Assembly: GCF_004118375.1 (NCBI RefSeq)
Contig: NZ_SDHX01000002.1
Span: 1,043,001-1,107,000 of the forward strand
Reading direction: 5' to 3'
Length of the DNA stretch: 64,000 bases
From: Oleiharenicola lentus
GTDB taxonomy: Bacteria > Verrucomicrobiota > Verrucomicrobiia > Opitutales > Opitutaceae
Shown: piece after piece, positions 24,977 to 41,377 of the stretch
Position numbering within the stretch: the stretch's first letter is position 1
Layout: each line of letters opens with the position of its first letter
Program-made: the position numbers and the translations under genes
The notes under the pieces: model-generated
What the model was told of the DNA's origin: nothing
The model's database searches: none
What the model saw: the letters and a program-made list of their open reading frames with translations, nothing else

Positions 24977-24984
24977 CGCGGCAA

Positions 24985-25031
24985 AATTCCAAACGCCAAA
25001 GCGCCAAACCCCAAAGAAACCCCAAACCCCG
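24985..25031. repeat. Degenerate heptad array after GH127
   Basis: Units of the form AAnnCCA: AATTCCA, AACGCCA, an eight-base AAGCGCCA, AACCCCA, an eleven-base slip, then AACCCCG. It begins nine bases after the stop codon. Confidence 0.7.
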
Positions 25032-25048
25032 GCATGATCACCCGTTCC

Positions 25049-25123
25049 GTCATCCTGAGCGCAGCGAAGGATCCAAGGAATCTCACGCACCCGCTTGGAT
25101 CCTTCGTCCGGCTCAGGATGACA
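25049..25123. repeat. Dispersed inverted repeat, R-type, copy 2
   Basis: GTCATCCTGAGCGCAGCGAA with GGATCCA on the left is mirrored by TTGGATCCTTCG and GGCTCAGGATGAC on the right. It is flanked by heptad arrays on both sides. Confidence 0.9.
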
Positions 25124-26567: not shown

Positions 26568-29420
26568 TTGTCCTTCGTCCGCATCACGCACCTCCGCTGC
26601 GAATACCTCGTCGCCCCGCTCGGGCTCGACGAGCGGACGCCCCGCCTGAGCTGGCAACTGGAATCCGCCGCGCGCGGCGTGCGCCAGACCGCCTACCGCA
26701 TCCGCGTTGCGAGCACCGCCGAGAAACTCGCCGCCGGCACCGCCGACCTCTGGGACTCCGGCCGCGTCGAATCAAACGCCACCACCCACATCGCCTACGC
26801 CGGCACCCCGCTCGCCTCCCGCCAACACTGCCACTGGCACGTCGAGGTCTGGATCGCCGATCCTCAGGTTTCAGATCTCAGGTCTCAGGTTTCTGCTCCC
26901 TCCCGCTGGACCATGGGCCTGCTGGAGAAATCCGACTGGTCCGCCAAGTGGATCGCCGCCGACCCGGAGATCATCCGCCGCGATCCGCAAGCCATCGCCC
27001 CGACGCTCACCGATCCCGGCACGCCCGCCCTCTTCCGCCGGGAGTTCGAGGTGCCCGGGCCGGTCGTGCGCGCGACCGTCTATGCCACCGCCCGCGGCCT
27101 GTTCGAACTCCGCGCCAACGGACGTCGCATCGGCGAGGACCTCTTCGCCCCGGAGTGGACCGACTACGACAAGCGCCTCCACTACCGCACCTACGACGTC
27201 ACCGGCCTGATCGCCCGCGGCCCCAACTGCCTCGCCGCCACCCTCGGTGACGGCTGGTGGTCCGGCTACGTCGGCTGGCAGGAAAAACGCGGCCGCTACG
27301 GCTCGCTGGAAAACAGCCTGCTCATCCAACTTGAGATCGAACTCGCCGACGGCGCACGCTTCACCCTCGCCACCGACGGCTCGTGGACCTGCAACACCGG
27401 CCCGATCCTCGCCTCGGACCTTCAGATGGGCGAAACCTATGACGCCCGACGGGAACACGCCGGATGGGACCTACCCAAAGAAACTCCACGGGTCGTGCTC
27501 AATGACGCTCCACCGGGATGGGCGGGGGTGGAGATTCAAGGATTCGCCAAACCCGCTGACTATGCTCGCCTCGCGAATTCCGATGCTTGGCTCCCTGCTC
27601 GTGAGGTGCCGCCACCTTCTGCAGTGCTTGTCGCCCAACGCGCCGAACCGGTTCGCATCATCGAAACTTTGGAGCCGGACCATATCGGAAACCCACCCAA
27701 GGGCACATATCTTTATGATTGTGGCCAGAATATCAGCGGCTGGGTCCGGCTGCACCTTGAGCATGTGCCCGCAGGCACTAAGATCACTTTACGCCACGGC
27801 GAACGCCTCACATCCGAAGGCTCTCTCTACACTGCGAATCTGCGTCGGGCAAAAGCTACCGATACTTATGTGGTGGCCGGCCGGCCCAAGGAAGTATGGC
27901 AACCTCATTTCACTTTCCACGGTTTCCAATATTTTGAGATCACAATTGATGGTCCACGCCCACCGCATGCTTTTATAAGGGCCATCGCCTGCGTCATCCA
28001 CTCGGCCACGCCTCCGGCCGGGCATTTCGAATGCTCGAACGCCCACGTGAACCGGCTCTGGCTGAACGGCCTCTGGTCGCAACGCGACAACTTCCTGTCC
28101 GTGCCCACCGACTGCCCGCAGCGCGACGAGCGCCTCGGCTGGATGGGCGACGCCCAGGTTTTCTGCCGCACCGCCATGTGCAACATGGACGTCGCCGCGT
28201 TCTTCACGAAGTGGATGACCGACGTCGAGGACGCCCAGACGGCCGAGGGAATTTTCCCGGATGTCGCCCCGCGTCTGCGCGAGGACATCCATTACGTCGG
28301 CCTCGGCAACCTCGGTGGCGGCGCCGCCTGGGCCGACGCCGGCATCATCATTCCCTACACGCTCTGGCGCGTCTATGGCGACCTTCGCCTTGTCGAGCGC
28401 CACTGGGGCGCCATGGTCCGCTGGCTCGACTGGATCGAGCGCCACAATCCCGACGGTCTCCGCCTCAACCAGCTTTTCAACAACTACGGCGACTGGCTCT
28501 GCATCCCGAGTGACACCTCCTTCGGCACGCACTCGCCGATGAAGAACCTGCTCGCGACCGCCTACTGGGCCGACGACGCCGCCAAGATGGCCCGTCTCGC
28601 CCGCGCCCTCGGTCGCGAGTCGGAGGCCGCGCGTTTCCAGGCGATGTTCGAGCGCGTCCGCGCCGCCTTCCAGAAGGAGTGGCTGAAGCCCGACGGCCGC
28701 CTCGCCGTCGAAACCCAAACCGCCTACCTGCTCGCCCTCGCCTTCGACCTGCTGCCGCCGAACCTGCGCGCCGCCGCCACCGAACACCTCGTCGCGAACA
28801 TCCGCAACCTCGACTGGCACCTCAGCACGGGCTTCGTCGGCATCAGCCACCTCAATCCGCAGCTCACGCTCGCCGGCCACGCCGATGTCGCCTACCGGCT
28901 CCTGCTGCAGGAAACCTATCCATCGTGGCTCTTCCCCGTGCTCCAGGGCGCCACCACGATCTGGGAACGCTGGGACAGCTGGACCATCGCCGGCGGTTTC
29001 CACAAGGACGGCATGAACTCTTTCAACCACTACTCGCTTGGTTCCGTCGGCGAGTGGTTGTTCCGCCACGTCGCCGGCATCGAGCTCGACCCCGAGGTGC
29101 CCGGCTACCAGCGGTTCGTGCTGCAACCGCATCTCGGCGCCGGCTTGGATTTCGCCCGCGCCACCTACCGCACGATGCACGGCGAAATCGCCAGCGCCTG
29201 GCGCCGCGAAGGCGACAAGCTCACGTGGACCGTTACCGTCCCGCCCAACACCACCGCGCAGGTCTTCATCCCGAGCGAACCCGGCACCGACGTGCACGCC
29301 GACGGCCTCACGGTCACCGGCCGCGAAGGCCGCTTCGCCCGCTGCGAAGCCCCCGCCGGCACCTACACGTTCACGAGCACCTATAAAGTGGAGGGCCCAG
29401 CTCCCGCTGGGCCGGTTTGA
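26568..29420 (+). CDS. GH78 alpha-L-rhamnosidase 1
   Basis: The 950-residue protein starts with TTG at 26568; no better ATG precedes it. It has an N-terminal beta domain (LRCEYLVAPLGLDERTPRLSWQL), the Bac_rhamnosid_N domain (AKWIAADPE... FRREFEV), the (alpha/alpha)6 catalytic domain with TDCPQRDERLGWMGDAQVF (general acid Glu in RDERLGW), ATTIWERWDSW (second carboxylate), and a C-terminal beta domain. It removes terminal alpha-L-rhamnose. No signal peptide is visible, so it may act in the cytoplasm on imported oligosaccharides. Two oddities are a heptad array coding residues about 100-110, and a central stretch 27470-27990 with visibly lower GC and different codon choice. Confidence 0.93.
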   Translation: MSFVRITHLRCEYLVAPLGLDERTPRLSWQLESAARGVRQTAYRIRVASTAEKLAAGTADLWDSGRVESNATTHIAYAGTPLASRQHCHWHVEVWIADPQVSDLRSQVSAPSRWTMGLLEKSDWSAKWIAADPEIIRRDPQAIAPTLTDPGTPALFRREFEVPGPVVRATVYATARGLFELRANGRRIGEDLFAPEWTDYDKRLHYRTYDVTGLIARGPNCLAATLGDGWWSGYVGWQEKRGRYGSLENSLLIQLEIELADGARFTLATDGSWTCNTGPILASDLQMGETYDARREHAGWDLPKETPRVVLNDAPPGWAGVEIQGFAKPADYARLANSDAWLPAREVPPPSAVLVAQRAEPVRIIETLEPDHIGNPPKGTYLYDCGQNISGWVRLHLEHVPAGTKITLRHGERLTSEGSLYTANLRRAKATDTYVVAGRPKEVWQPHFTFHGFQYFEITIDGPRPPHAFIRAIACVIHSATPPAGHFECSNAHVNRLWLNGLWSQRDNFLSVPTDCPQRDERLGWMGDAQVFCRTAMCNMDVAAFFTKWMTDVEDAQTAEGIFPDVAPRLREDIHYVGLGNLGGGAAWADAGIIIPYTLWRVYGDLRLVERHWGAMVRWLDWIERHNPDGLRLNQLFNNYGDWLCIPSDTSFGTHSPMKNLLATAYWADDAAKMARLARALGRESEAARFQAMFERVRAAFQKEWLKPDGRLAVETQTAYLLALAFDLLPPNLRAAATEHLVANIRNLDWHLSTGFVGISHLNPQLTLAGHADVAYRLLLQETYPSWLFPVLQGATTIWERWDSWTIAGGFHKDGMNSFNHYSLGSVGEWLFRHVAGIELDPEVPGYQRFVLQPHLGAGLDFARATYRTMHGEIASAWRREGDKLTWTVTVPPNTTAQVFIPSEPGTDVHADGLTVTGREGRFARCEAPAGTYTFTSTYKVEGPAPAGPV
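26864..26898. repeat. Heptad array inside GH78 gene 1
   Basis: TCAGGTT, TCAGATC, TCAGGTC, TCAGGTT, TCTGCTC are read in frame as QVSDLRSQVSA, directly before the conserved PSRWTMGLL. Confidence 0.9.
27470..27990 (+). other. Compositionally distinct patch inside GH78 gene 1
   Basis: The coding frame is continuous, but A/T-ending codons (GAT, TAT, CTT, ACT, CCT, ATA) become common here and are rare before and after. The encoded part (about residues 301-474) still fits GH78, including GNPPKGTYLYDCGQNISGW. This suggests replacement by homologous recombination from a lower-GC relative. Confidence 0.7.
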
Positions 29421-29427
29421 TCCGCGC

Positions 29428-29868
29428 TCACCCCTTCCGCTTCACCAGCAGCAGATGTTCCGCCGCCAACACCGTTTCCCCGCGCTGGTTCAGCGCCTCG
29501 ACCAGCTCGACGACCACGCCGAGCGTCGGGCGCTTGGGGTCGTCGCGCTTCTCCTTCACGGTGCAGCGCGAGGTGATCGTGTCGCCGATGAACACCGGCT
29601 TGATGAACCGCACGCGGTCGTAGCCATAGGAAAACGCCTCGGGGTTGATCTCGCCCGCGGTCTGGCCGACGGCCACCGCGAAGATCAGCGTGCCGTGCGC
29701 GATGCGCTGCTTGAACGGCTGCGTCTTGCACCACTCGGCGTCCATGTGGTGCGGGTAGAAATCACCGGTCTGGCCGGCGTGCAGCACGACGTCGGCCTCG
29801 GTGATCGTGCGGCCCGTCGAGGTGCGGCTCGTGCCCGGCGCGTAGTCTTCGAAAAAGAGCGTCTTCAT
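29428..29868 (-). CDS. MaoC-like (R)-specific enoyl-CoA hydratase / acyl dehydratase
   Basis: The 146-residue single hot-dog-fold protein has the hydratase-2 style motif [19 protein letters not shown] (about residues 34-52), with Asp and His in the expected spacing, followed by IAHGTL. Such enzymes hydrate or dehydrate acyl-CoA thioesters in the cytoplasm. It ends seven bases from the GH78 stop (convergent) and is divergent from the Gfo/Idh gene, only 47 bases away, so the two likely share a control region. Together with the CoA-transferase three genes on, it suggests a CoA-linked step in the pathway. Confidence 0.9.
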
Positions 29869-29915
29869 GATGTGCGGCGCAGCGTGAGCCGCGTCCGTCC
29901 GGAGGGCAATCCCGC

Positions 29916-30992
29916 TTGAGGCTTATGGCGCCGTGCCACGTCCCGCTTCCTTCCGTCTCGCGCCCGATCGTCTCGATCGGCGCCGGCGGCATCGTGCGCG
30001 ACGCCCATCTGCCGGCCTACCGGCTCGCAGGCTTTCCCGTGGCGGGCGTCTTCGACCCCGACACCGCCAAGGCCGCGAAGCTTGCCGCCGACTTCGGTAT
30101 TCCGCGCGTGTTTGCCTCGCTGGCCGAGGCCGTCGCCCAGGCCCCGGCCCACGCCTTGTTCGACGTGGCCGTGCCGGCCTCCGCCCTGCCTGACGTCCTG
30201 CCCGCCCTGCCCGACGGCGCGCCGGTGCTGATTCAGAAACCCTTCGGCGAAAACCTCGCTGCCGCGCGCCAGCTCCTCGCGCTCTGCGAGCACAAGCGCC
30301 TCTCGGCCGCGGTGAACTTCCAGCTGCGCACCTCGCCCGGCGTCGTCGAGGCGCGCCGGTTGATCGCCGCTGGCGCGATCGGCGACCTGCACGACCTCGA
30401 GGTGCGCGTGACGGTTTACACGCCGTGGCAGCTCTGGACCTTCCTTGAGGGCATCCCGCGCGTGGAAATCCTCTACCACAGCATCCACTACGTGGACCTC
30501 GTGCGCAGTTTTCTCGGCGAACCGACCGGCGTTCACGCCAAGACCACGCGCCACCCGGCCGCGCCGAAACTCGCCGCCACGCGCACGACGATGGCGCTCG
30601 AATACGGCGAAGACCTGCGCGCCACGATCACCACGAACCACGGCCACAACTTCGGCGGCGCCCACCAGGAGAGCTATGTGAAATGGGAGGGCACCCGCGG
30701 CGCGCTCAAGCTCCGCCTCGGCCTGCTGCTCGACTACCCGCACGGCGAGCCCGACACCCTCGAACTCTGCCCGCTCGGGGCCGACGGCCGGCCGGGCGCC
30801 TGGCAGCCTGTGCCGCTCGCGGGCAACTGGTTTCCCCACGCCTTCATCGGCCCGATGGCCGCGCTCCAGCGTTTCGCCGCCGGCGAGAGCCCCGACCTGC
30901 CCACGCGCGTGGCCGACGCGTTCCGCACGATGGCCGTCGTCGAGGCTGCCTACGAATCCAGCGCCCGCGGCGCCACGCCGATTCCCGCATGA
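29916..30992 (+). CDS. Gfo/Idh/MocA family oxidoreductase A
   Basis: A 358-residue NAD(P)-dependent dehydrogenase. The Rossmann motif is [18 protein letters not shown] (about residues 19-36), the cofactor/active-site lysine lies in the IQKPFGENL segment (usually EKP), and there is a C-terminal alpha/beta domain with [22 protein letters not shown]. The start is uncertain: TTG 29916 has GGAGGG nine bases upstream, while ATG 29925 lies 18 bases from it. I keep the TTG. It could oxidise a sugar or inositol to a lactone or ketone; D-apiose dehydrogenase is one known member. The next gene starts in its stop codon (ATGA), so they are coupled. Confidence 0.9.
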
Positions 30993-32152
30993 GCACTTCC
31001 GTCCAGCTTCGCGGCATGACCTGGGGCCACACGCGCGGCTTTTTGCCCGTCGTCGCCACCGCCCAGCGCTTCGGCGAGCTGAACCCCGGCGTCGAAATCG
31101 TCTGGGAGAAGCGCTCGCTGAAGGCCTTCGAGGAGTTCCCCGTGGAGAAACTCGCCGCCGACTACGACCTGATCGTGCTCGACCACCCCTTCGTCGGCTA
31201 CGCCGCCGCGCACGGTCCGCTGCTGCCGCTCGACGAACACCTGCCGGCCGCCTTCCTCGCCGACCAGGCCGCCAACTCCGTCGGCGCCTCGCACCCGAGC
31301 TACACCTACGGCGGCCACCACTGGGCGCTGGCCATCGACGCAGCCACGCCGGTCGCCTTCTGGCGCGAGGACCTGCTGGCCCGGCACGGCGTCGCGGTGC
31401 CGCGCACCTGGGACGACCTGCTTGGTCTCGCTCGCGCCGGCCGCGTGGAGATCCCCGCCGCACCAATCAACTGCCTGATGAATTTCTACACGTTCTGCGT
31501 GGCCCACGGCGAAACGCCCTTCGCCACCCGCGAACGCGTGGCCTCCGCCGACACCGGCCGCGCCGCCCTCGCCAGTCTGCGTGAACTCATCTCGCTCTGC
31601 GACCCGGGCTGCTGGGCGCGCAACCCGATCGCCTCGCACGACCTCGTGGCCTCCGCCGCGAACACGCAGGTCGCCTACTGCCCTCTCGCCTACGGCTACT
31701 CCAACTACGCGCGCGCCGGCTACGCCGCCCACCGCCTGACCTTCGGCGAGCCCCCGCTCCACCGCGGCGCCCCGCTGCGCACCACCCTCGGCGGGACCGG
31801 CCTCGCCGTGTCGGCGCTGCGGCCGCACCGCGCCACCGCCCTCGCCTACGCGCAGTTCGCCGCCTCGGCGGAGATTCAGCGCACGCTCTACACCGCCGCC
31901 GGCGGCCAGCCCGGCCACCGCAAGGCGTGGACCGACGCCGACAACAATGCGCTCACCGGCGGTTGCTTCATCCGCACGCTGCCGGTGCTCGACCGCGCCT
32001 TCCTGCGTCCGCGCCATAACGGCTACATGGCCTTCCAAGAGCACGCCGGGCAGGTCGTGCACGCCGCGCTGCGTGGCCAGACAGACGAAGCCTCGGCCCT
32101 GAACCAACTCGATGCGCTCTACCGCGCATCGCTGGGCAATCGTGAAAACTGA
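30989..32152 (+). CDS. Family 1 extracellular solute-binding protein homologue lacking a signal peptide
   Basis: The 387-residue protein resembles family 1 (MalE/UgpB-like) binding proteins: LNPGVEIVWEKRSLKAFEEFPVEKL, YDLIVLDHPFVGYAA, AIDAATPVAFWREDLLARHG and TLGGTGLAVSA. However, it begins [18 protein letters not shown] with no hydrophobic signal and no lipobox. It overlaps the dehydrogenase stop by four bases, which fixes the start, and no permease or ATPase is nearby. It may therefore work in the cytoplasm as a ligand-binding or sensor protein, or it may be a relic. The last residues, REN, are encoded by a 12-base sequence that also ends the GH43-like gene at 48665. Confidence 0.82.
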   Translation: MSTSVQLRGMTWGHTRGFLPVVATAQRFGELNPGVEIVWEKRSLKAFEEFPVEKLAADYDLIVLDHPFVGYAAAHGPLLPLDEHLPAAFLADQAANSVGASHPSYTYGGHHWALAIDAATPVAFWREDLLARHGVAVPRTWDDLLGLARAGRVEIPAAPINCLMNFYTFCVAHGETPFATRERVASADTGRAALASLRELISLCDPGCWARNPIASHDLVASAANTQVAYCPLAYGYSNYARAGYAAHRLTFGEPPLHRGAPLRTTLGGTGLAVSALRPHRATALAYAQFAASAEIQRTLYTAAGGQPGHRKAWTDADNNALTGGCFIRTLPVLDRAFLRPRHNGYMAFQEHAGQVVHAALRGQTDEASALNQLDALYRASLGNREN

Positions 32153-32203
32153 GATTCTCCGAGGCTATTCGATATGGTGATTTACCCTCAAACTCCCCCC
32201 GCC

Positions 32204-32277
32204 GTCATCCTGAGTGAAACGAAGGATCCAAGGGAATCCGCGCATCTCCTTGGATGCTTCGCACGGCTCAGCATGAC
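32204..32277. repeat. Dispersed inverted repeat, R-type, copy 3 (degenerate)
   Basis: GTCATCCTGAGTGAAACGAA with GGATCCAAGG on the left is mirrored by CCTTGGATGCTTCG and GGCTCAGCATGAC on the right, with a few mismatches. Confidence 0.85.
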
Positions 32278-32312
32278 GCTCCGCGGATTTGATCCGGCTG
32301 AAACTGTGGGGC

Positions 32313-32347
32313 TTCGATTCCCGATGCCCGATTTCAAGATTTCCCTC
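32313..32347. repeat. Heptad array before the CoA-transferase gene
   Basis: TTCGATT, CCCGATG, CCCGATT, TCAAGAT, TTCCCTC end five bases before the ATG at 32353. A 17-base part is identical to the array at 47501-47542. Confidence 0.78.
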
Positions 32348-32352
32348 CCCGC

Positions 32353-33495
32353 ATGAAACCGCTCGAAGGTCTCCTCGTTCTCGATTTCGCCCAGTTTCTC
32401 GCCGGGCCCTGGGCCGCCACGCGCCTCGCCGACCTCGGCGCGCGCGTCATCAAGATTGAGCGCCCGGGCACGGGCGACATCGGCCGCCAGCTCTACATCT
32501 CCAACCTCGCGCTCGACGGCGACAGCACGCTCTTCCACTCGATCAACCGCAACAAGCAGAGCTACGCCGCGGACCTCAAGAACCCGGCCGACCTCGCGAA
32601 GGTGAAGCAGCTCATCGCGCGGGCCGACGTGCTCATCCAGAACTTCCGCCCCGGCGTGATGGAGCGCATCGGCCTCGGCCCGGAGCAGTGCGCCGCGCTC
32701 AACCCGCGCCTCGTCTATGGCGTCGTCACCGGCTACGGCCGCACCGGCCCGTGGGTGGAGAAACCCGGCCAGGACCTCCTCGCGCAGTCCGTTTCCGGCC
32801 TCGTCCACCTCAACGGCAACGCCGGCGACCCGCCGCTGCCCTTCGGCCTCGCCGTCGCCGACCTCACCGCGAGCGCCCACCTCGTGCAGGGCCTGCTCGC
32901 CGCCCTCGTGCGCCGCGGCGTCACGGGCAAGGGCGGCCTCGTCGAGGTCAGCCTGCTCGAATCCATCCTCGACCTGCAGTTCGAGGTCACGACGACCTTC
33001 CTCAACGACGGTGGCCGCGTGCCGCAGCGCAGCGCGGTGAACAACGGCCACGCCTACCTCGGCGCGCCCTATGGCATCTATGCCACCGCCGACGGCTTTC
33101 TCGCGCTCGCGATGGGTTCGATCACGAAGCTTGGTGAACTGCTCGCGCTACCCTCGCTCGCCGCCTTCGCCGACCCGGCCACGTGGTTCACGCGCCGCGA
33201 TGAGATCAAGCGCCTCCTCGCCGACCACCTCAAGACGCAGCCGACCAAGCACTGGCTCGCCCGCCTCGAACCCGCCGACTACTGGTGCGCCGAGGTCCAC
33301 TCCTGGCCGCAGCTCTGGGAGACCGACGCGTTCAAGGCCCTCGACTTCGTGCAGGAAGTCACCCGTGACGGCGGCCCGACGCTCCGCACCACCCGCTGCC
33401 CGATCACGATCGACGGCCAGCGCTTCAAGTCCCCGCGCGGCGCCCCCCGCGTCGGCCAGCACACCGCGGCCATCCAAACCGAATTCGGCCTGTGA
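32353..33495 (+). CDS. Family III CoA-transferase (CaiB/BaiF)
   Basis: The 380-residue cytoplasmic enzyme has the family opening LEGLLVLDFAQFLAGPWAATRLADLGARVIKIE, the NKQSYAADLKN and IQNFRPGVMERIGLG blocks, and the catalytic aspartate in PGQDLLAQSVSG (about Asp141). The downstream block NGHAYLGAPYGIYATADGFLALAMG is also typical. It moves CoA between acids such as formate, carnitine or 2-hydroxy acids; the substrate here is unknown. It follows the binding-protein homologue after a 200-base repeat block and precedes RhaT. With the MaoC gene it implies that an acid intermediate is activated as a CoA ester. Confidence 0.92.
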   Translation: MKPLEGLLVLDFAQFLAGPWAATRLADLGARVIKIERPGTGDIGRQLYISNLALDGDSTLFHSINRNKQSYAADLKNPADLAKVKQLIARADVLIQNFRPGVMERIGLGPEQCAALNPRLVYGVVTGYGRTGPWVEKPGQDLLAQSVSGLVHLNGNAGDPPLPFGLAVADLTASAHLVQGLLAALVRRGVTGKGGLVEVSLLESILDLQFEVTTTFLNDGGRVPQRSAVNNGHAYLGAPYGIYATADGFLALAMGSITKLGELLALPSLAAFADPATWFTRRDEIKRLLADHLKTQPTKHWLARLEPADYWCAEVHSWPQLWETDAFKALDFVQEVTRDGGPTLRTTRCPITIDGQRFKSPRGAPRVGQHTAAIQTEFGL

Positions 33496-33521
33496 GTCCC
33501 TTCCTTTCAATTCTCGCCCCC

Positions 33522-33608
33522 TGTCATTCTGAGCGCAGCGAAGAATCCAGCCTCAGCACGCGCGCCCTCACGCCGGACTCTGGATCCTTCGCTCCGCTCA
33601 GGATGACA
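33522..33608. repeat. Dispersed inverted repeat, R-type, copy 4
   Basis: TGTCATTCTGAGCGCAGCGA with AGAATCCAG on the left is mirrored by CTGGATCCTTCGC and CGCTCAGGATGACA on the right. It lies between the CoA-transferase and RhaT genes and has no heptad arrays. Confidence 0.9.
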
Positions 33609-33628
33609 CGCTGCTAACGCCCCACCCC

Positions 33629-34690
33629 ATGTTACCCCCCGACCCCAATCCCCTGCTCGGCACCGCCTACCACGCCGTCGGCGCCGGCAGCGCGGCGCTG
33701 TGCTACGCCCCGCAGCGCCACCTGCACAAGTGGAGCTGGCAAACCTACTGGCTCACGCAGGCGGCCGGGTGCTGGCTGGTTTTCCCGTGGCTTTTCGCGT
33801 GGGCCACCATCCCCGAACTCGGCACCGTGCTGCGCGAGGCGCCGGCCGCAGCCATGTGGAAATCCTGGGCCCTCGGCGCAGTCTATGGCGTGGGTGGCAT
33901 CGCGTTTGGCGTCGCCATCCGCTACATCGGCTACTCGCTCACCTACGCGCTCGCCATCAGCATCTCCTGCGTGCTCGGCACGCTGCTCCCGCCGTTCCTC
34001 GCGGGCAAACTCGGCGAAACGCTCTCGTCCAGTGCCGGTCTGCTCGTCATCGCGGGCGTGCTGGTGGGCGGCGTGGCGATGATCGTGACCGGCTACGCGG
34101 GCTTCCGCCGCGAGAGCGAAACGGCCCATGATGCCAACAAGACGCCCTTCAACGCCCGCCTCGGTCTCCCGATCGTGCTGCTCGCCGGCGTGCTGTCGGC
34201 CGTCTTCAGCTTCGCGCTGGCCGCGGCGCAACCCGTGGCCGACATCGCCGCGAAGCACGGCGCCGGTCACTTCCAGGGCAACGTCATCTACCTGTTCTCC
34301 AACAGCGGCGCCTTCACGACCACGCTGCTCTACGCCGGCTGGCTCGCCACGCGTGAGCGCACCTGGGGCGAATTCTTCCGCACGCCCGACGGCACCGGCC
34401 TCGGCCGCAACTACCTGCTCTCCGCCCTCACCGGCCTGCTCTGGTATCTGCAGTTCTTCTTCTACGGCCTCGGCCATGTGCGGATGGGCCGCTTCGAATT
34501 CTCCAGCTGGGCCATCCACATGATCATCCTGATCCTGCTGAGCTGCGGCTTCGGCGTCGCCATCGGAGAATGGAAATCCGCCCGCCCCGCCACCAAGGCC
34601 CTTGTCTTCGCCTCCATCGCCCTCCTTCTCGGCGCCGTCGGCCTCATCAGCTACGGCAACACCCTGGCCTCCGCCCCCGCCGCCCACTGA
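33629..34690 (+). CDS. rhaT: L-rhamnose/proton symporter RhaT family transporter
   Basis: The 353-residue protein has about ten membrane helices. It shows RhaT features: GTAYHAVGAGSAALCYAPQRHLHKWSWQTYWL at the N-terminus, GVGGIAFGVAIRYIGYSLTYALAISISCVLGTL in the middle and GLLWYLQFFFYGLGHVRMG near the C-terminus. Known RhaT imports L-rhamnose with protons. Position next to rhamnosidase genes supports that, although the neighbouring lactonase, dehydratase and RuBisCO-like genes leave open a different 6-deoxy or branched sugar. It is followed by two identical palindromes, one right after its stop codon and one before the next gene. Confidence 0.9.
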   Translation: MLPPDPNPLLGTAYHAVGAGSAALCYAPQRHLHKWSWQTYWLTQAAGCWLVFPWLFAWATIPELGTVLREAPAAAMWKSWALGAVYGVGGIAFGVAIRYIGYSLTYALAISISCVLGTLLPPFLAGKLGETLSSSAGLLVIAGVLVGGVAMIVTGYAGFRRESETAHDANKTPFNARLGLPIVLLAGVLSAVFSFALAAAQPVADIAAKHGAGHFQGNVIYLFSNSGAFTTTLLYAGWLATRERTWGEFFRTPDGTGLGRNYLLSALTGLLWYLQFFFYGLGHVRMGRFEFSSWAIHMIILILLSCGFGVAIGEWKSARPATKALVFASIALLLGAVGLISYGNTLASAPAAH

Positions 34691-34697
34691 CCAACCC

Positions 34698-34718
34698 AAT
34701 GTTCGTAATACGAACATT
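34698..34718. promoter_or_regulatory. Palindromic operator candidate, copy 1
   Basis: Perfect arms AATGTTCGT and ACGAACATT around AAT, seven bases after the RhaT stop codon. An identical copy lies 122 bases downstream. The GTTCG-n5-CGAAC layout is typical of binding sites for dimeric repressors of the GntR or IclR type; no such regulator gene is in this window. Confidence 0.75.
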
Positions 34719-34819
34719 CAACCGATGCCCCCTGAGACCACACCTGTCGCCTTCCGAGCCGTTTCCCCAACGGTGGCGCACGGCCAGGCCGTCGTCCGGG
34801 CGAAAAGTCCACCCCGCCC

Positions 34820-34840
34820 AATGTTCGTAATACGAACATT
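34820..34840. promoter_or_regulatory. Palindromic operator candidate, copy 2
   Basis: Identical to copy 1 and ending six bases before the ATG of the amidohydrolase gene, so a bound protein could block a promoter or the 5' leader. Bases around both copies are also similar (CCCAAT before, CATTCA after). The 100 bases between the copies show no gene. Confidence 0.78.
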
Positions 34841-34846
34841 CACCCC

Positions 34847-35695
34847 ATGCACCTGATCGACACGCACCAACACCTCTGGAACTTGCAGCAGTTCCCCTAC
34901 GCGTGGTGCGCGGGCATCCCGGCGCTGAACCGCAGCTTCCTGCCCGGCGACTATGCCGCCGCGGCCGCGGGCACGGGCATTACGCGCACGGTGTTTGTCG
35001 AATGCGACGTGGACGAGCCGCACGCCCTGGCCGAGGCGCAACACATCCAGTCGCTCGCCTCCGTTTCCCCGGCCATCGCCGGCATTGTCGCCAGCGGGCG
35101 CCCGGAAAACGAAAATTTCCGCACCCACCTCGAGGCGCTCGCCCAACTGCCCAAGGTCCGCGGCTTCCGCCGCGTGCTGCACACCCAGCCCGACGAGCTC
35201 TCGGCCCAATCGCGTTTCATCGAGCACGTCCGCCTGCTGCCGGAGTTCGGTCTCAGCTTCGACCTCTGCGTGCTGGCCCGGCAGCTGCCGCAGGCCATCG
35301 CGCTGGTGGACGCCTGTCCGCATGTCTCCTTCATCCTCGACCACGCCGGCGTGCCCGACGTGAAGGGCCGAGCCTTCGACCCGTGGCGCGAACACCTCCG
35401 CGCCCTCGCGGAACGCCCCAACGTCGCGTGCAAGCTCAGTGGCCTCGTCGCCTACGCCGGCCCGGACTGGACCGTCGCCGACCTGCAGCCGTGGGTGGAG
35501 CACGTCATCGCCTGCTTCGGCTGGGACCGTGTGGCGTGGGGCGGCGACTGGCCGGTCTGCACGCTCGGCGCGTCGCTCGCGCGCTGGGTCGAGGCCACCC
35601 GCGAACTCACCGCCGGCGCCAGCGAAAGCGAGCGCGCCCGCCTCTTCCATCGCAACGCCGAACGCCTTTACCGGCTGGAGGTCGCTTCGTCATGA
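34847..35695 (+). CDS. Amidohydrolase_2 family lactonase (sugar-acid lactonase-like)
   Basis: The 282-residue TIM-barrel protein opens with the metal-binding motif IDTHQHLWN (about residues 4-12). It continues with FVECDVDEPHALAEAQ, RGFRRVLHTQPDE, FILDHAGVPD and WGGDWPVCT, the pattern of COG3618 enzymes such as L-fucono-1,5-lactonase and L-rhamnono-lactonase. It probably opens an aldonolactone to the free acid. It is the first gene behind the palindromic operator and overlaps the next gene by ATGA, so lactonase and dehydratase are made together. Substrate identity is inferred from neighbours only. Confidence 0.9.
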   Translation: MHLIDTHQHLWNLQQFPYAWCAGIPALNRSFLPGDYAAAAAGTGITRTVFVECDVDEPHALAEAQHIQSLASVSPAIAGIVASGRPENENFRTHLEALAQLPKVRGFRRVLHTQPDELSAQSRFIEHVRLLPEFGLSFDLCVLARQLPQAIALVDACPHVSFILDHAGVPDVKGRAFDPWREHLRALAERPNVACKLSGLVAYAGPDWTVADLQPWVEHVIACFGWDRVAWGGDWPVCTLGASLARWVEATRELTAGASESERARLFHRNAERLYRLEVASS

Positions 35696-36804
35696 AAATC
35701 ACCCGGCTCGTTCCGATCATTCTTCATGCGCCGGTCACCCGCGGCAGCATTGCCGACAGCACGCACAGCATCACCCACTGGGGCGCCCCGGGCGTGGCGA
35801 TCGAAACCGACGCGGGCCTCACGGGCTACGGCTTTTCCGGCACCCATGCGCATCTGGCCACCGACCGGCTGATCGTGGACTGCGCGGTGCACAGCTACGG
35901 CCCGCTGCTCCTCGGCGAGGACCCGCGCGAAGTGCGCGCGCTCTGGGAAAAACTCCACAAGCACGCTCCGGTGCAATGGGTCGGCCGCGCGGGCCTCACG
36001 CACCTCGCGCTCGGCGCCATCGACATCGCCCTCTGGGATCTCAAGGCCAAGGCCGCCGGCCAGCCGCTCTGGAAACTCCTCGGCGGGTCGGCCGCGAAGA
36101 AGGTCGAGGCCTACAACACCGACGGCGGCTGGCTCAACTGGCCGATCGAGACGCTCGTCAGCGACTGCCGGCGGTTGGTCGAGTCGGAGGGCTACCGCGC
36201 CGTGAAGATCAAGGTCGGCAGCCCCGACCCCGCCACCGACCTGCGCCGCCTCGAGGCCGTCCGTGCCGCGATCGGCCCGGGCGTCCGGCTCATGACCGAC
36301 GCCAACGGCAAGCTCACCCTGCCCGAGGCCATCCGCCTTGGCCGCCGGCTCGCCGACTATGACGTCGTGTGGTTCGAGGAACCCACCGCCTTTGACGACG
36401 TGCTCGCCCACCGCCGCCTCGTGGAGGCCATCGAGACGCCCATCGCGCTCGGCGAACAGCTCTACCTCGCGGCCCAGTTCCGCGACTTTATCCACGCCGG
36501 GGCGGTCCATTTCGTGCAACCCGACGTCGTGCGCCTCGCCGGCATCACCGAGTTCTGGCAGGTCGCCGACCTCGCCCACAGTTACAGCCTGCCGGTCGTG
36601 CCGCACGTCGGCGACATGTGCCAGGTGCACCAACACCTGTGTTTCGCGCACCCGGGTTGCCGGCTGCTGGAATACATCCCGTGGCTGCGCGACTGGATGA
36701 AACATCCCGCCCAAATCCGCGACGGCCACTTCATCGCGCCCGAGGCCCCCGGTGCCGGCATGGAGCCGACCGCCGACGCCCTCGCCCGCATCAACCGTGC
36801 CTGA
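35692..36804 (+). CDS. Enolase superfamily acid-sugar dehydratase (mandelate racemase subgroup)
   Basis: The 370-residue protein has the full mandelate-racemase-type active site: VKIKVG (Lys172 and Lys174), metal ligands Asp203 (TDANG), Glu229 (FEEP) and Glu255 (GEQLY), and the base His305 in PHVGD. The N-terminal capping domain has ETDAGLTGYGFSG. Members dehydrate sugar acids such as L-rhamnonate, L-fuconate or D-galactonate to 2-keto-3-deoxy acids. The start overlaps the lactonase stop by four bases, and the RuBisCO-like gene begins two bases after its stop. The lactonase, dehydratase order matches non-phosphorylative sugar oxidation. Confidence 0.92.
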   Translation: MKITRLVPIILHAPVTRGSIADSTHSITHWGAPGVAIETDAGLTGYGFSGTHAHLATDRLIVDCAVHSYGPLLLGEDPREVRALWEKLHKHAPVQWVGRAGLTHLALGAIDIALWDLKAKAAGQPLWKLLGGSAAKKVEAYNTDGGWLNWPIETLVSDCRRLVESEGYRAVKIKVGSPDPATDLRRLEAVRAAIGPGVRLMTDANGKLTLPEAIRLGRRLADYDVVWFEEPTAFDDVLAHRRLVEAIETPIALGEQLYLAAQFRDFIHAGAVHFVQPDVVRLAGITEFWQVADLAHSYSLPVVPHVGDMCQVHQHLCFAHPGCRLLEYIPWLRDWMKHPAQIRDGHFIAPEAPGAGMEPTADALARINRA

Positions 36805-36806
36805 AC

Positions 36807-38054
36807 ATGGAACGCGTCACCGCCACCTACCACATTGAAACCGCGCTGCCCGTCGCAAAGGCCGCCGCCACCCTCGCCGGCGAGCAATCCTCCGGCACCT
36901 TCGTCGCCGTGCCCGGCGAGACCGCCGAGCTGAAGGCCCGCTTCGCCGCGCGCGTCGAAAGAATCACCGAGCTCGACTCCGTCGCCATCCCTTCGCTTCC
37001 GACCGGCCGCCCCCTCGCCGCCAGCTATCGCCGCGCCGAGGTCGTTGTGTCGTGGTCCGTCGAGAACTTCGGCCCCAATCTCCCCACGCTCGTCTCCACC
37101 CTGCAGGGCAACCTCTACGAGCTCGCGCAGTTCTCCGGGCTCAAGCTCGTGGACTTCGACGTGCCGCCGGGTTTCGCCGCCGCGTTCCGCGGCCCGGCCT
37201 TTGGCATCGCCGGCTGCCGCCGTCTCACGGGCGTCACAGGTCGCCCGCTGATCGGCACGATCATCAAGCCGAGCATCGGCCTCTCGCCCGACCAGACCGC
37301 CGCAATGGTAAAGGAACTCGTCGAGGCCGGCATCGATTTCCTCAAGGACGACGAGCTGATGGCCAACCCGCCGCACTCGCCGTTCGACGCGCGCGTGGAC
37401 GCCGTGATGCGCGTCATCAACGACCACGCCCAGCGCACCGGGAAGAAGGCGATGTATGCCTTCAACGTCAGCGACGAGCTCGACGCGATGTCTCGCCACT
37501 ACGACAAGGTCGTGGCCACCGGCGGAACCTGCGCGATGCTCAGCCTGAACAGCGTGGGCCTCGCCGCCGCCAAAAAGATCTGCGACCGCGGCCAGCTCGC
37601 CATCCACGGCCACCGCAACGGCTGGGGCATGCTCAACCGCCACCCGCTGCTCGGCATGGAGTTCCCCGCCTACCAGAAACTCTGGCGCCTCGCCGGTGTG
37701 GACCAGCTCCACGTCAACGGCATCGCCAACAAGTTCTGGGAACCCGACGACTCCGTCGTGCGCTCGATCACCGCGTGCCTCGCCGCCGAGCCGCTGGGCA
37801 AGCCGCTGCTGCCCGTGGTGTCCTCGGGCCAGTGGGGCGGCCAGGCGCCCGAGACCTTCCGCCGCACGCGCACCACCGACCTGCTCTACATGGCCGGCGG
37901 CGGCATCCAGGCGCACCCCGACGGCCCGGCCGCGGGCGTCGAATCCCTCCGCCTCTGGTGGCAGGCCGCCACCGAGGGGCTCGACTACGATCAGTCGCTC
38001 GCACGCTACCCGGGGCTGGCAAAGTCGGCCGCGAAGTTCGGAGGTCCTTTATAG
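36807..38054 (+). CDS. RuBisCO-like protein (form IV), probable acid-sugar-phosphate decarboxylase or hydrolase
   Basis: The 415-residue RuBisCO large-chain homologue starts at ATG 36807, two bases after the dehydratase stop; the longer frame upstream is a shadow. Active-site features of true RuBisCO are kept: a lysine in TIIKPSIG (about 153), the carbamate/metal motif DFLKDDE (about Lys180, Asp182, Glu183), GHRNGWG (about 267) and a loop-6-like lysine in ANKFWEP (about 308). The rest is of the short RuBisCO-like type (FVAVPGETAELKARFAARVE). No small subunit or phosphoribulokinase is nearby, so CO2 fixation is unlikely. Relatives paired with DUF1537 kinases act on 3-oxo-isoapionate-4-phosphate. 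Confidence 0.92.
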   Translation: MERVTATYHIETALPVAKAAATLAGEQSSGTFVAVPGETAELKARFAARVERITELDSVAIPSLPTGRPLAASYRRAEVVVSWSVENFGPNLPTLVSTLQGNLYELAQFSGLKLVDFDVPPGFAAAFRGPAFGIAGCRRLTGVTGRPLIGTIIKPSIGLSPDQTAAMVKELVEAGIDFLKDDELMANPPHSPFDARVDAVMRVINDHAQRTGKKAMYAFNVSDELDAMSRHYDKVVATGGTCAMLSLNSVGLAAAKKICDRGQLAIHGHRNGWGMLNRHPLLGMEFPAYQKLWRLAGVDQLHVNGIANKFWEPDDSVVRSITACLAAEPLGKPLLPVVSSGQWGGQAPETFRRTRTTDLLYMAGGGIQAHPDGPAAGVESLRLWWQAATEGLDYDQSLARYPGLAKSAAKFGGPL

Positions 38055-38089
38055 GCCCTATACGACCCATAAGTCCCATAGGTCTTATA
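38054..38089. repeat. Nonamer array between the RuBisCO-like and DUF1537 genes
   Basis: Four nine-base units, GGCCCTATA, CGACCCATA, AGTCCCATA and GGTCTTATA, begin at the last base of the stop codon and fill most of the 45-base gap. Period nine sets it apart from the heptad arrays elsewhere. Confidence 0.8.
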
Positions 38090-38099
38090 CAAAATCCCC

Positions 38100-39362
38100 A
38101 TGCTCCACCTCGCCTACTTCGCCGACGACTTCACGGGCGCGACCGACGCGCTCGAGACCCTCGCGCAATCCGGACGACGCACCCGGCTTTTCCTCTATCC
38201 CCCGACGCCGGCCCAATGCGCCGGCCTGGAGGCCGTCGGGGTCGCCGGGCTCACGCGCTCGCTCGCTCCGGACGCGATGGAGGCCGTGCTGCGGCCGGCC
38301 TTCGCCGCCCTGCGCACGCTCAACCCGCGCCATGTTTACTACAAGGTCTGCTCGACCTTCGATTCGTCGCCGACCGTCGGCAGCATCGGCCGCGCGATCG
38401 AGGTCGGCCGGGCCGTCTTCGGCGGCGGCGTCACGCCCGTGGTCGTCGCCGCGCCCGCGCTCGGACGTTACTGCGCCTTTGGCAATCTCTTCGCCCGCTA
38501 CGGCATCGGCAGTGACGGCCCCATCTACCGGCTCGACCGGCATCCGGCCACCAGCAAGCACGTGGTCACGCCCATGACCGAGGCGGACCTGCGCCTGCAC
38601 CTTGCCGCCCAAACCACCCTCCGCATCGGCCTGGTCTCGCTGCCCTCGATCGAAGGCGACCCGGAACGCGTCCACCAGGCCGTGCTCGCCCAGGCGGGCG
38701 GAGGGGCGGAGATCGTGTTCATCGATGCCTTGACCAACACCCATCTCGACCTGATCGGCGGTGCCCTGGGCTCCCTCGCCCCGGCCGATCGCCCCTTGTT
38801 TTCGGTGGGTTCCTCCGGCCTCGGAACCGCCCTGGCAGCCTACTTCGCCACCATTCCGGCGAAGCCCGCCGCCGTTCCCCCCGGCCCCGTGCTCGTCCTG
38901 TCCGGCAGCTGCTCGCCGGTCACCGGCGGGCAGGTCGATCACGCTTTGGCCCACGGCTTCACCGGCGTGGCCCTCGACCCCGCGACGCCCGACACCCCGG
39001 CCATCCGCGAACAAATTGTGGCCGCCCTGCGCACCGGCCGCCCGGTGATCGCTTATACCGCGCGCGGCTCAAGCGACCGGCCCCCGGTCGGCGCCGCCGA
39101 GCTTGGCGCCGCCCTCGGCCGCCTCGCGCGTGAGGCCGTAGCCGCCACCGGCTTGCGCCGCGTGGTGTTCGCCGGTGGCGACACGTCCAGCTACGCCGCC
39201 CGTGCCCTCGGCCTCCAGTCCATCGAATGGCTCGCGCCCCTGGCCCCCGGCGCGCCCTGGTGCCGCGCCCATGCTCCCGGTTCCCCCATCGACGGCCTCG
39301 CCCTCAACTTCAAGGGCGGCCAGGTCGGCGCCCCCGACTACTTCACCGCCGCCCTCGGCTGA
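38100..39362 (+). CDS. DUF1537 four-carbon acid sugar kinase family protein
   Basis: The 420-residue protein has the N-terminal sugar-binding motif YFADDFTGATDALETLA (about residues 6-22), YKVCSTFDSSPTVGSIG, and the C-terminal nucleotide-binding motifs SGSCSPVTGGQ, VFAGGDTSSYAARALG and NFKGGQVGAPDYF. DUF1537 enzymes phosphorylate acid sugars, for example 3-oxo-tetronates, D-threonate or 3-oxo-isoapionate. Placed directly after the RuBisCO-like gene, it probably makes that enzyme's phosphorylated substrate, as in characterised D-apionate pathways. The exact substrate here is not determined. Confidence 0.92.
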   Translation: MLHLAYFADDFTGATDALETLAQSGRRTRLFLYPPTPAQCAGLEAVGVAGLTRSLAPDAMEAVLRPAFAALRTLNPRHVYYKVCSTFDSSPTVGSIGRAIEVGRAVFGGGVTPVVVAAPALGRYCAFGNLFARYGIGSDGPIYRLDRHPATSKHVVTPMTEADLRLHLAAQTTLRIGLVSLPSIEGDPERVHQAVLAQAGGGAEIVFIDALTNTHLDLIGGALGSLAPADRPLFSVGSSGLGTALAAYFATIPAKPAAVPPGPVLVLSGSCSPVTGGQVDHALAHGFTGVALDPATPDTPAIREQIVAALRTGRPVIAYTARGSSDRPPVGAAELGAALGRLAREAVAATGLRRVVFAGGDTSSYAARALGLQSIEWLAPLAPGAPWCRAHAPGSPIDGLALNFKGGQVGAPDYFTAALG

Positions 39363-39398
39363 CTTTCCCCTCTCCTTCCCTTTACCCTCACCGCTCCC

Positions 39399-40067
39399 AT
39401 GCCCGGCAAAACCCTCGCCCTCATCCATACCTCCGCGACCCTCGTCCCGGTGTTCCAACAGCTCTGCCGCGACAAACTGCCCGGCGTGGACACGTTCAAC
39501 ATCGTGGACGACAGCCTCGTCCGCCAGATCGGCGCGCAGGGCGGCATCACGCCCGCCATCGCCGCGCGCGTGGCCGCCTACATCGGCTCGGCTGCCTCCG
39601 GCGGGGCCGACCACATCCTCGTCACCTGCTCCTCCATCGGCCCGGCCGTGGAGGCGGCCGCCCCGTCGGTCAAGGTGCCGGTGCTCCGCGTGGACCAGCC
39701 CATGGCCGATCTCGCGGTGCGCACCGGGAAACGCATCGGCGTCATCGCCACCCTGCCCACCACGCTCAACCCGACCGCGGATCTCGTGCGCCGCCGTGCG
39801 GCCGCGGCGGGCCAGTCCATCGAGCTGACCATGCGCCTCTGCGAGGGTGCCTTCGAGGCGCTCATGGCGGGCAACGCCGCCGCGCACGACACGCGGGTCC
39901 GCGCCGCTTTGGTCGAACTTTCCACGCAAGTGGATGTCATCGTGCTGGCCCAGGCCTCGATGGCGCAGGTCGTCGCCACCCTCACCCCCGAACAGCGCCG
40001 CATCCCCATCCTCGCCAGCCCGCCCCTCGCCATCGACCATCTGGCCACCCTCCTTTCGGCTTCGTGA
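39399..40067 (+). CDS. Asp/Glu/hydantoin racemase superfamily protein with only one active-site cysteine
   Basis: The 222-residue protein has the superfamily fold: IHTSATLVPVFQQL at the start, VTCSSIGPAVEAA (about residues 69-81) with the first cysteine, GVIATLPTT, and VIVLAQASMA where the second catalytic cysteine normally sits but alanine is found. Two-cysteine members racemise amino acids. One-cysteine members such as arylmalonate decarboxylase use other chemistry, though in that enzyme it is the second cysteine that remains. A decarboxylase, isomerase or lyase step on an acid intermediate is possible. It lies between the DUF1537 and SBF genes with short gaps (36 and 29 bases). Confidence 0.82.
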   Translation: MPGKTLALIHTSATLVPVFQQLCRDKLPGVDTFNIVDDSLVRQIGAQGGITPAIAARVAAYIGSAASGGADHILVTCSSIGPAVEAAAPSVKVPVLRVDQPMADLAVRTGKRIGVIATLPTTLNPTADLVRRRAAAAGQSIELTMRLCEGAFEALMAGNAAAHDTRVRAALVELSTQVDVIVLAQASMAQVVATLTPEQRRIPILASPPLAIDHLATLLSAS

Positions 40068-40096
40068 ACTGAACTACCCCAACCCAGCACCACCCC

Positions 40097-41377
40097 ATGC
40101 TGCTCTTCCGCCGGATCTGCCTTGTCCTCGCCGCCGTCGCCGCGCTCGCCCTGGTGGCCGGACTTGCCACCGGCTCCTCCCCTCTCTGGCAACCCGCCGC
40201 CGTGGTCGCCAGCATCGGCCTCGCCATCGGGCTCGGCGCACTGCCGGCCGTGGCCAGCTACCAGTTCACCGCCTGGATCCTCGCCACCGTCGTCTGCGGC
40301 CTGCTCTATCCGCACGAGGTCATCCACTGGGGTGACGTGGATCTCACCAACAAGTGGATCCGCCTCGTCGCGGTCCAGATGGTGATGTTCGGCATGGGCA
40401 CACAGATGGGCGTGCGCGACTTCGCCGGCGTGCTGAAACAGCCCTGGGGCGTGGCCGTCGCCGTGATGTCGCAATTCACCGTCATGCCGCTCGTCGGCTG
40501 GATGCTGATCAAAACTTTTCCGCTCGAGCCGGAGATCGCCGCCGGCGTCATCCTCATCGGCTCCTGCAGCAGCGGCCTGGCCTCGAACGTCATGTGCTAC
40601 ATCGCCAAGGCCAACCTGCCGCTCTCCGTCACGGCCACCGCCTGCACCACGATGCTGGCGCCGCTCATGACCCCGCTCTGGATGAAGCTGCTCGCCGGCA
40701 CCCTCGTGAGCGTGAGCTTCGTCGGCATGATGACCGAGATCATCAAGATCGTGCTCGTGCCCATCGGCGCCGGCCTGCTCCACGACTGGCTCAAGTGGGC
40801 CTCGCCCGCCGCCACCCGCCGGCTGAAACTCGCCCAGGCCGCCTGCGGCACCGCCGTGGTCCTGCTGTTCCTCACCCGTGACCGCTGGGGCGCCCTCCCG
40901 CCCAACGTCGCCCTGCTGGTCGAGCTTTTCGGCTTTCTGCTCGGGGCCGTGGCCTTCGGCGTGTTCTACCACCAGCTGACGAAACTCCTGCCCAAGCTCG
41001 ACGGTTGGATGCCGGTGGCCTCGATGATGGGCATCATGTATTTCACGTCGGTCACGACCGCCGTGGGCCGCGACCACCTCATGCGCATCGGCGGCGTGCT
41101 GTTCCTCGTCGCCGCCCTGCACAACGCCTTCGGCTACATCCTCGGCTACTGGCTGGGCCGCGCGGGCGGACTCGACCGGAACTCCGCGCGCACCGTCGCC
41201 ATCGAGGTCGGCCTGCAGAACGGCGGCATGGCCTCGGGCCTCGCCGGCAGCATGGGCAAGCTCGCCACCGTCGGCCTCGCCGCCGCGGTCTTCGGCGCGT
41301 GGATGAACATCTCCGGCTCCATCCTGGCCAACTACTGGAAACGCCGGCCCGTGACCCCGGAAACCCCACCTTCATGA
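40097..41377 (+). CDS. SBF (bile acid:sodium symporter) family transporter
   Basis: A 426-residue membrane protein with about ten helices. Family motifs are QMVMFGMGTQMGVRDFAGVL, VILIGSCSSGLASNVMCYIAKAN and the sodium-site-like EVGLQNGGMASGLAGSMG near residue 375. The superfamily carries organic anions (bile acids, pantoate, keto acids) with sodium. In this operon it most likely moves an acidic sugar or keto acid, in or out. The next gene starts within its stop codon (ATGA), so expression of the following unknown proteins is tied to this catabolic operon. Confidence 0.9.
   Translation: MLLFRRICLVLAAVAALALVAGLATGSSPLWQPAAVVASIGLAIGLGALPAVASYQFTAWILATVVCGLLYPHEVIHWGDVDLTNKWIRLVAVQMVMFGMGTQMGVRDFAGVLKQPWGVAVAVMSQFTVMPLVGWMLIKTFPLEPEIAAGVILIGSCSSGLASNVMCYIAKANLPLSVTATACTTMLAPLMTPLWMKLLAGTLVSVSFVGMMTEIIKIVLVPIGAGLLHDWLKWASPAATRRLKLAQAACGTAVVLLFLTRDRWGALPPNVALLVELFGFLLGAVAFGVFYHQLTKLLPKLDGWMPVASMMGIMYFTSVTTAVGRDHLMRIGGVLFLVAALHNAFGYILGYWLGRAGGLDRNSARTVAIEVGLQNGGMASGLAGSMGKLATVGLAAAVFGAWMNISGSILANYWKRRPVTPETPPS

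Follow-up and report, generated by a model that had tools for sequence, protein, structure and literature searches.

Which sugar would be broken down by a RuBisCO-like protein (RLP) encoded among the pectin-type genes of a verrucomicrobium? The question is raised by a stretch of 64,000 nucleotides from Oleiharenicola lentus (contig NZ_SDHX01000002.1, here the window), where the RLP gene (36807-38054, + strand; PF00016, 206.3 bits) is followed, on the same strand, by genes for a DUF1537 kinase (38100-39362; PF07005/PF17042), a one-cysteine homologue of the Asp/Glu racemases (39399-40067; PF01177) and an SBF-family carrier (40097-41377; PF01758). We propose, with a probability of roughly two in three, that these four genes form an intracellular catabolic pathway for L-aceric acid derived from rhamnogalacturonan II (RG-II). 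L-Aceric acid is 3-C-carboxy-5-deoxy-L-xylose, a rare sugar of the plant cell wall; its assignment as the substrate is well supported, although it is, like every reaction discussed below, a prediction. The gene that matters most for the meaning of the locus is a homologue of the aceric acid hydrolase, which lies some 12 kb upstream of the RLP gene (22847-24976, + strand), outside the coordinates covered by a first-pass annotation of the same DNA, where it had been missed.

A bacterial enzyme is known to release aceric acid from RG-II, while no account was found of the fate of the sugar inside the cell: the mainly open-access literature searched yielded no microbial catabolic route, which is not proof of absence. 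The present finding supplies four genes, a chemical route and culturable carriers for testing, among them Rufibacter tibetensis, Pelobium manganitolerans and Verrucomicrobia bacterium IMCC26134. If correct, it would add a new substrate to the RuBisCO superfamily and possibly a new reaction to the Asp/Glu racemase fold, and the group to which the RLP belongs, whose members at present carry just the annotation "ribulose-bisphosphate carboxylase large subunit family", would split into apionate-type and aceric-type proteins.

The RuBisCO-like protein and its conserved partners

The window RLP is the sole PF00016 match in the 4.71 Mb genome. Neighbourhoods were compared for the best 80 of 131 relatives together with plasmid loci, the neighbours being located by tblastn; 44 of the loci belong to a group named clade A and 37 lie outside it. 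Clade A had been defined beforehand from neighbourhoods and identity, and a tree of 94 RLP rows, from which L081 and L036 were left out (matched length 300 or less), agreed with it exactly, placing the window protein in a clade of 45 rows with support 100/99. The sister group consists of L105, L109 and L113 (support 83/73), the last of which also carries the racemase homologue and the carrier.

The curated model for OiaX, an RLP of D-apionate degradation, gives the window protein 502.9 bits against a cut-off of 700, a value that does not discriminate, since ten further RLPs score 454-551 and eight of them lie outside both clade A and its sister group. A methionine-salvage enolase was rejected on scores, as the MtnW models reach 110.1 and 152 bits (cut-offs 513.6 and 409). 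The type III RuBisCO model gives 207.1 bits (cut-off 497.45). Thus, despite the superfamily in common, an identity as methionine-salvage enolase or true RuBisCO is exceedingly improbable. Equivalents of the RuBisCO metal and base motifs are present in the window RLP and are the majority residues in the 45 clade-A and 39 other rows; they presumably correspond to K175, K201-D203-E204, H294-R295, H327, K334 and S379, a numbering that we assume and that was placed by motif. Twelve RLP positions distinguish clade A from the others by the chosen cut-off, the sharpest being position 300, which is Gln in 98% of the 45 clade-A rows but His in every other row (39 of 39); Gln100 also belongs to the twelve.

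The arrangement is more than chance: the order RLP, kinase, racemase homologue and carrier recurs in Bacteroidota, Planctomycetota and Verrucomicrobiota. The racemase homologue is found at 39 of the 44 clade-A loci and at two of the 37 other RLP loci (L089 and L113), the carrier at 35 and one, respectively. In the kinase tree, built without L045 and L061, all 43 clade-A kinases examined fall into a single clan with zero outsiders (support 0.88, on a short branch); no clade-specific residue passed the chosen cut-off in the kinase alignment. The window kinase scores 328 bits on the OiaK model (cut-off 700) and the carrier 190.1 bits on the PanS model (cut-off 400). The same four genes stand in the same order in an uncharacterised cluster on the Rufibacter tibetensis plasmid NZ_CP012644.1 (RLP 69%, kinase 51%, racemase homologue 66%, carrier 58%), which carries the hydrolase as well; unlike in the window, the RLP gene there is not accompanied by genes for an enolase-superfamily protein or a lactonase. 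Among 72,556 plasmid records, the best matches for the RLP, the racemase homologue and the hydrolase are all on one Rufibacter plasmid.

The first-pass annotation had combined into a single pathway the seven genes from a RhaT-like sugar symporter (33629-34690, + strand; PF06379) to the SBF carrier. Their coordinates, frames and families are all as it gave them, while its "several" ATGA overlaps were overstated: there is a single one, between the lactonase and enolase genes (35692-35695), followed by 2 nucleotides between enolase and RLP genes, the remaining gaps being of 29-156 nucleotides. The comparison of loci indicates a conserved core of RLP, DUF1537 kinase, racemase homologue and SBF carrier, with RhaT, lactonase and dehydratase outside it. 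Indeed, the supposed dehydratase, an MR/MLE enolase-superfamily protein (35692-36804, + strand), appears to be accessory, being found at 83-90% identity in 8 of the 44 clade-A loci, all of them close relatives of the window, and the lactonase-like amidohydrolase-2 (34847-35695, + strand) has just one homologue in clade-A loci, at 24%, in Anditalea; a pathway defined by a rhamnonate-type lactonase and dehydratase is not supported. The label "rhamnonate-type" did not stand either, since the lactonase is nearest to L-fucono-1,5-lactonase (141.8 bits, cut-off 400) and the enolase to talarate/galactarate dehydratase (251.2 bits, cut-off 500), with 92.0 bits for L-rhamnonate dehydratase; an L-rhamnonate route was rejected because the enolase is not near that family. 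Thus a scheme in which RhaT, lactonase and dehydratase would supply the RLP/kinase pair from a rhamnonate-like acid, as the physical gene order in the window and the ATGA overlap would have it, is very improbable: lactonase and RhaT are missing from nearly all clade-A loci, and the genome has a RhaD enzyme.

Association with an aceric acid hydrolase homologue

The hydrolase frame 22847-24976 is masked by a longer frame on the opposite strand (22805-25090), which has no Pfam match. Its product has GH127 Pfam domains and matches positions 2-656 of the 657 of the NCBIfam model "aceric acid hydrolase" (NF049879) with 889.5 bits, under the curated cut-off of 950; the true start of the frame is probably further in, and the signal sequence of the protein was read by eye. 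Residues E388, C390, C465 and C466, the GH127 Cys3-Glu motif, are invariant in the window protein and 18 homologues (19 rows). The motif is taken from the zinc-cysteine site described in PMC10850190. In the RG-II system of Bacteroides thetaiotaomicron, L-aceric acid is freed from RG-II by the GH127 enzyme BT1003 (BtGH127), according to PMC5698469 and PMC10850190. Compared with BT1003, the window protein is a homologous GH127 hydrolase with the zinc-cysteine motif, and differs in staying under the curated cut-off.

In the fetched flanks the hydrolase homologue occurs at 18 of the 44 clade-A loci and at none of the 37 other RLP loci. At least five genomes (L066, G545, G751, G010 and G091) have it directly upstream of the RLP gene and on the same strand, with a match gap of 29-49 nucleotides. 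Genome-wide, in a search that left out L070, 39 of the 43 clade-A genomes or records have it: 34 at 830 bits or more and five as a partial match, four of 650-774 bits and one (G419) of 303 bits over 229 positions, which lies at the contig edge and directly before the RLP gene. Among the 37 genomes with other RLPs it reaches at least 797 bits in four, namely G441, G431, G449 and G462 (locus L113, of the sister group), and a further member of the sister group, G454 (L105), has a partial match of 325 bits.

Larger samples gave the same picture. The clade RLP (at least 72% identity) is found in 12 of 387 Verrucomicrobiota genomes, all 12 within the 14 whose hydrolase scores at least 873 bits; seven more genomes have merely distant RLP relatives (28-33%), and in the window's genus the five remaining genomes lack an RLP and reach a best GH127 score of 427 bits. 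In Bacteroidota (n=395) the RLP (65-68%) is found in eight genomes, all within the 20 whose hydrolase exceeds the curated cut-off. Fisher p values, which ignore kinship, are 4.6e-21 for Verrucomicrobiota and 9.2e-12 for Bacteroidota (1.8e-10 when the centre genome is omitted); the comparison of clade-A with other RLP genomes gives 1.1e-13, kinship being again ignored and the sets overlapping in part. Since 12 of those 20 Bacteroidota carry the hydrolase without this RLP, the B. thetaiotaomicron system gave no pointer to the fate of the sugar.

Several observations weigh against the assignment to aceric acid. The window hydrolase falls short of the cut-off of its model, and Bacteroidota hydrolases linked to the same module score 1056-1176 bits on it; a single one of the 387 Verrucomicrobiota genomes exceeds 950 bits, and that genome, G143, has no RLP. 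The lines at 830, 797 and 873 bits were set after the scores had been seen (in Verrucomicrobiota the gap runs from 873.8 to 762.4), and the samples overlap, at least G388/G260, G389/G140, G391/G085 and G410/G119 being the same places. Four clade-A genomes (G395, G409, G424 and G426) lack a hydrolase-grade match, and G441, G431 and G449 combine the hydrolase with a non-A RLP as their only RLP. The association is one-way, as the hydrolase is found without the RLP in the 12 Bacteroidota already mentioned and in two of the 14 Verrucomicrobiota, G143 and G351. FGGY-kinase and transketolase genes are linked to clade-A loci nearly as often (16 and 14 of 44), and no aldolase, the enzyme predicted for the last step below, turned up among the annotated clusters, the loci not having been searched for one specifically. 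A mild further point is a Croceibacterium plasmid on which a racemase homologue (50%) is encoded next to, and divergently from, an apiosidase-domain protein. Above all, the hydrolase is a marker of RG-II use as a whole; any RG-II sugar pathway would therefore co-occur with it, and it is the only RG-II enzyme behind the genome-wide figures. Co-occurrence by itself does not identify the sugar, and the assignment to aceric acid rests on operon adjacency together with the chemical match.

This bears on the possibility that the module serves another acid or branched sugar of RG-II and that the hydrolase accompanies it merely as a marker of RG-II degraders. The GH78, GH106, GH95, GH2 and GH88 genes of clade-A loci, and the FGGY-kinase and transketolase genes that they often contain, would suit such a function. 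It is nevertheless unlikely, because the hydrolase gene immediately precedes the RLP gene in five or more genomes, from two phyla, and because the kinase/RLP pair would need a 2-hydroxy-3-oxo acid with the carboxylate on a branch carbon, for which aceric acid appears to be the best fit.

As a side observation, the hydrolase genes without RLP in the window's family are G143:C27:658950-660929 (L117) and G351:C88:2153-4141; these two organisms may not use the sugar, or may use it by a different route.

A predicted route for L-aceric acid

In the proposed pathway, the exported GH127 protein would free aceric acid from RG-II and the SBF carrier would import it. The one-cysteine racemase homologue would then isomerise the aldose to the ketose HOOC-C(OH)(CHOH-CH3)-CO-CH2OH, whose terminal CH2OH would be phosphorylated by the DUF1537 kinase. 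The RLP, for which decarboxylation of a branched 2-hydroxy-3-oxo acid phosphate is predicted, would convert the product to 5-deoxypentulose-1-phosphate and CO2, and finally a class II aldolase, here most likely the RhaD-type bifunctional enzyme, would split it into dihydroxyacetone phosphate and acetaldehyde. The substrate of the known kinase/RLP pair, 3-oxo-isoapionate, is presumably HOOC-C(OH)(CH2OH)-CO-CH2OH; the aceric acid ketose would be the same compound with one additional methyl group, so that the chemistry would fit the pair.

The kinase/RLP logic is already known from D-apionate, and its application to aceric acid is probably new. The D-apionate pathway (Carter et al. 2018, as summarised in PMC6302742) comprises the DUF1537 kinase OiaK and the RLP OiaX, and apionate RLPs either decarboxylate 3-oxo-isoapionate 4-phosphate or transcarboxylate/hydrolyse it (PMC6302742). 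The module resembles that pathway in its adjacent kinase and RLP genes, in the RLP catalytic motifs and in the predicted decarboxylation of a 2-hydroxy-3-oxo acid phosphate; it differs in that its RLP and kinase form separate clades tied to the aceric acid hydrolase and in that the racemase homologue and the SBF carrier replace the ApnL, Gfo/Idh and PGDH_C genes. These are found at 13 (ApnL-like lactonase), 10 (Gfo/Idh) and 22 (PGDH_C dehydrogenase) of the 37 loci outside clade A and at none of the 44 clade-A loci, where the racemase homologue follows the kinase in the place that other loci give to the PGDH_C gene. Nowhere in the window's genome is there a match to ApnL (NF049900) or, at E 1e-15, to the PGDH_C dehydrogenase known from canonical loci; with the accessory genes absent, a canonical apionate cluster was rejected. 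The first-pass annotation had noted that the apionate lactonase and oxidoisomerase were missing, which holds genome-wide, and had called the latter xylose-isomerase-like, whereas the candidate for the oxidoisomerase ApnO, the PGDH_C dehydrogenase, is not. Its broader suggestion of an acid-sugar pathway with an apionate-type RLP/kinase pair at its centre is borne out, and the route is probably new; aceric acid was among the sugars that it listed for tests.

A variant of D-apiose/D-apionate degradation, in which kinase and RLP would act on 3-oxo-isoapionate as OiaK and OiaX do and the racemase homologue or another enzyme would form this compound without ApnO, draws on OiaX/OiaK as the closest characterised family, on the Croceibacterium gene pair and on five of the 43 clade-A genomes (G394, G396, G397, G398 and G414), which also have ApnL-like and PGDH_C genes. 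These genes are absent from the other 38 of the 43 searched, however, and the RLP and kinase clades are separate. Moreover, a Fucose_iso_C-like isomerase, split transketolase halves and a glycerol-kinase-like FGGY kinase adjoin the module in 9-16 of the 44 clade-A loci, including L044, L060, L065, L067, L068 and L070. We take these genes to represent, possibly, the non-oxidative apiose route, seemingly complete beside the module in many clade-A loci, which would leave the RLP free for another sugar. A single apiosidase-like query, a weak one-sequence control, gave matches, most of them partial, at 2 of the 44 clade-A loci and at 3 of the 37 others. Overall, this variant is slightly less probable even than a module for another RG-II sugar.

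With a substrate derived from aceric acid, the RLP might instead act by hydrolysis or transcarboxylation like the Xanthobacter apionate RLP, both reaction types being reported for apionate RLPs in PMC6302742 and the motifs being unable to distinguish them. Nothing specific speaks against this, but decarboxylation would give an aldolase substrate directly and the genome has RhaD, so that we consider the alternative unlikely. That bifunctional RhaD-type enzyme scores 1113.6 bits (cut-off 634), and its stereochemistry presumably suits 5-deoxy-L-xylulose phosphate; the aldolase cleavage is all the same among the least certain steps. The leading class II aldolase match in this genome, L133, was rejected because it is the AraD epimerase. 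The same split of 5-deoxypentulose-1-phosphate would be shared with the salvage of 5'-deoxyadenosine and 5-deoxyribose, for which it is proposed in PMC6302742, while the module differs from that salvage in origin, stereochemistry and upstream enzymes.

The isomerisation is the weakest link. The protein was described in the first-pass annotation as having one cysteine, and this proved right: all 42 homologues retain C77, and in all 42 the expected second position is Ala186, within an invariant LAQAS that stands where we take the second catalytic cysteine of Asp/Glu racemases to be, by motif and not by superposition. A fold model (pLDDT 95.1) matches 2dx7 and 1jfl with TM 0.75-0.76 and indicates the Asp/Glu racemase fold; by sequence, no PDB match was found at E 0.01. 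The alignment used for folding left out L075, L072 and L079 (no start codon by the rule used), as well as L089, L046 and L012. Aldose-ketose isomerisation is a reaction that, to our knowledge, has no precedent in this superfamily; the single cysteine would suit a one-base 1,2-proton shift, in contrast to two-base racemisation. If the remaining steps are granted, the assignment of the isomerisation to this protein falls somewhat short of an even chance. The full scheme, a dedicated and complete L-aceric acid pathway in which the RLP removes the branch carboxylate and the racemase homologue serves as aldose-ketose isomerase, is more tentative still. The plasmid context of a distant racemase homologue in Rhizobium was uninformative.

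Surroundings of the module and a second gene set

Around the GH127 frame lie genes for GH78, GH141, GH95 and SASA-esterase proteins, two TonB receptors and AraC regulators, making this a locus of the pectin/RG-II type. They include a GH78 alpha-L-rhamnosidase (26568-29420, + strand) and, on the opposite strand, a GH141-domain protein (19840-21702; PF21231), both taken as RG-II/pectin context, together with a GH95 glycoside hydrolase (15219-17729; PF22124) and an AraC-family regulator (21886-22743), the last two also on the - strand. An MFS transporter (25198-26475, + strand) is present in 11 of the 44 clade-A loci.

A second recurring gene set occupies 29428-35695 in the window, 2866-9798 in L063 and 8998-16514 in L161. 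It is made up of genes for a MaoC dehydratase (29428-29868, - strand; PF01575; 61% to Anditalea), a Gfo/Idh/MocA oxidoreductase (29916-30992, + strand; 48%), a solute-binding-fold protein (30989-32152, + strand; PF13416; 48%), one or two CoA-transferases III (32353-33495, + strand; PF02515; 56%) and RhaT (51%), with the lactonase-like amidohydrolase in the window and in Anditalea. In Anditalea the lactonase-like gene and RhaT are grouped with MaoC, the solute-binding-fold protein, two CoA-transferases and Gfo/Idh; Rufibacter has the set, including RhaT, without an annotated lactonase in the stretch examined. This, together with the patchy enolase, suggests that the seven-gene row is composed of parts of two gene sets, with the enolase as an accessory, and that RhaT and the lactonase more likely belong to the second. 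By its composition, this set looks like an undescribed CoA-linked sugar-acid route. Read by eye, its solute-binding-fold protein has no apparent signal peptide, and such a protein is paired with a CoA-transferase also in Roseateles.

The window enolase is closest in the PDB to 3tj4/4h19 (445 bits), and a 60% homologue in Thalassospira marina is grouped with TRAP transporter and dehydrogenase genes. Its action on aceric acid itself was rejected on chemical grounds, because the carbon bearing the carboxylate would have no abstractable hydrogen.

Finally, a 19-bp palindrome, ATGTTCGT(A/T)(A/T)TACGAACAT, occurs as a pair in the gap between the rhaT and lactonase genes (34699-34717 and 34821-34839). 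The genome has 52 matches at two mismatches or fewer (0 in a reversed-sequence control); 48 of the 50 matches listed are exact, and they are mostly paired about 50-140 bp apart. The flanks in the ten loci read have little in common beyond a short edge, and the palindrome may be a REPIN-like element or a set of sites for a global DNA-binding protein.

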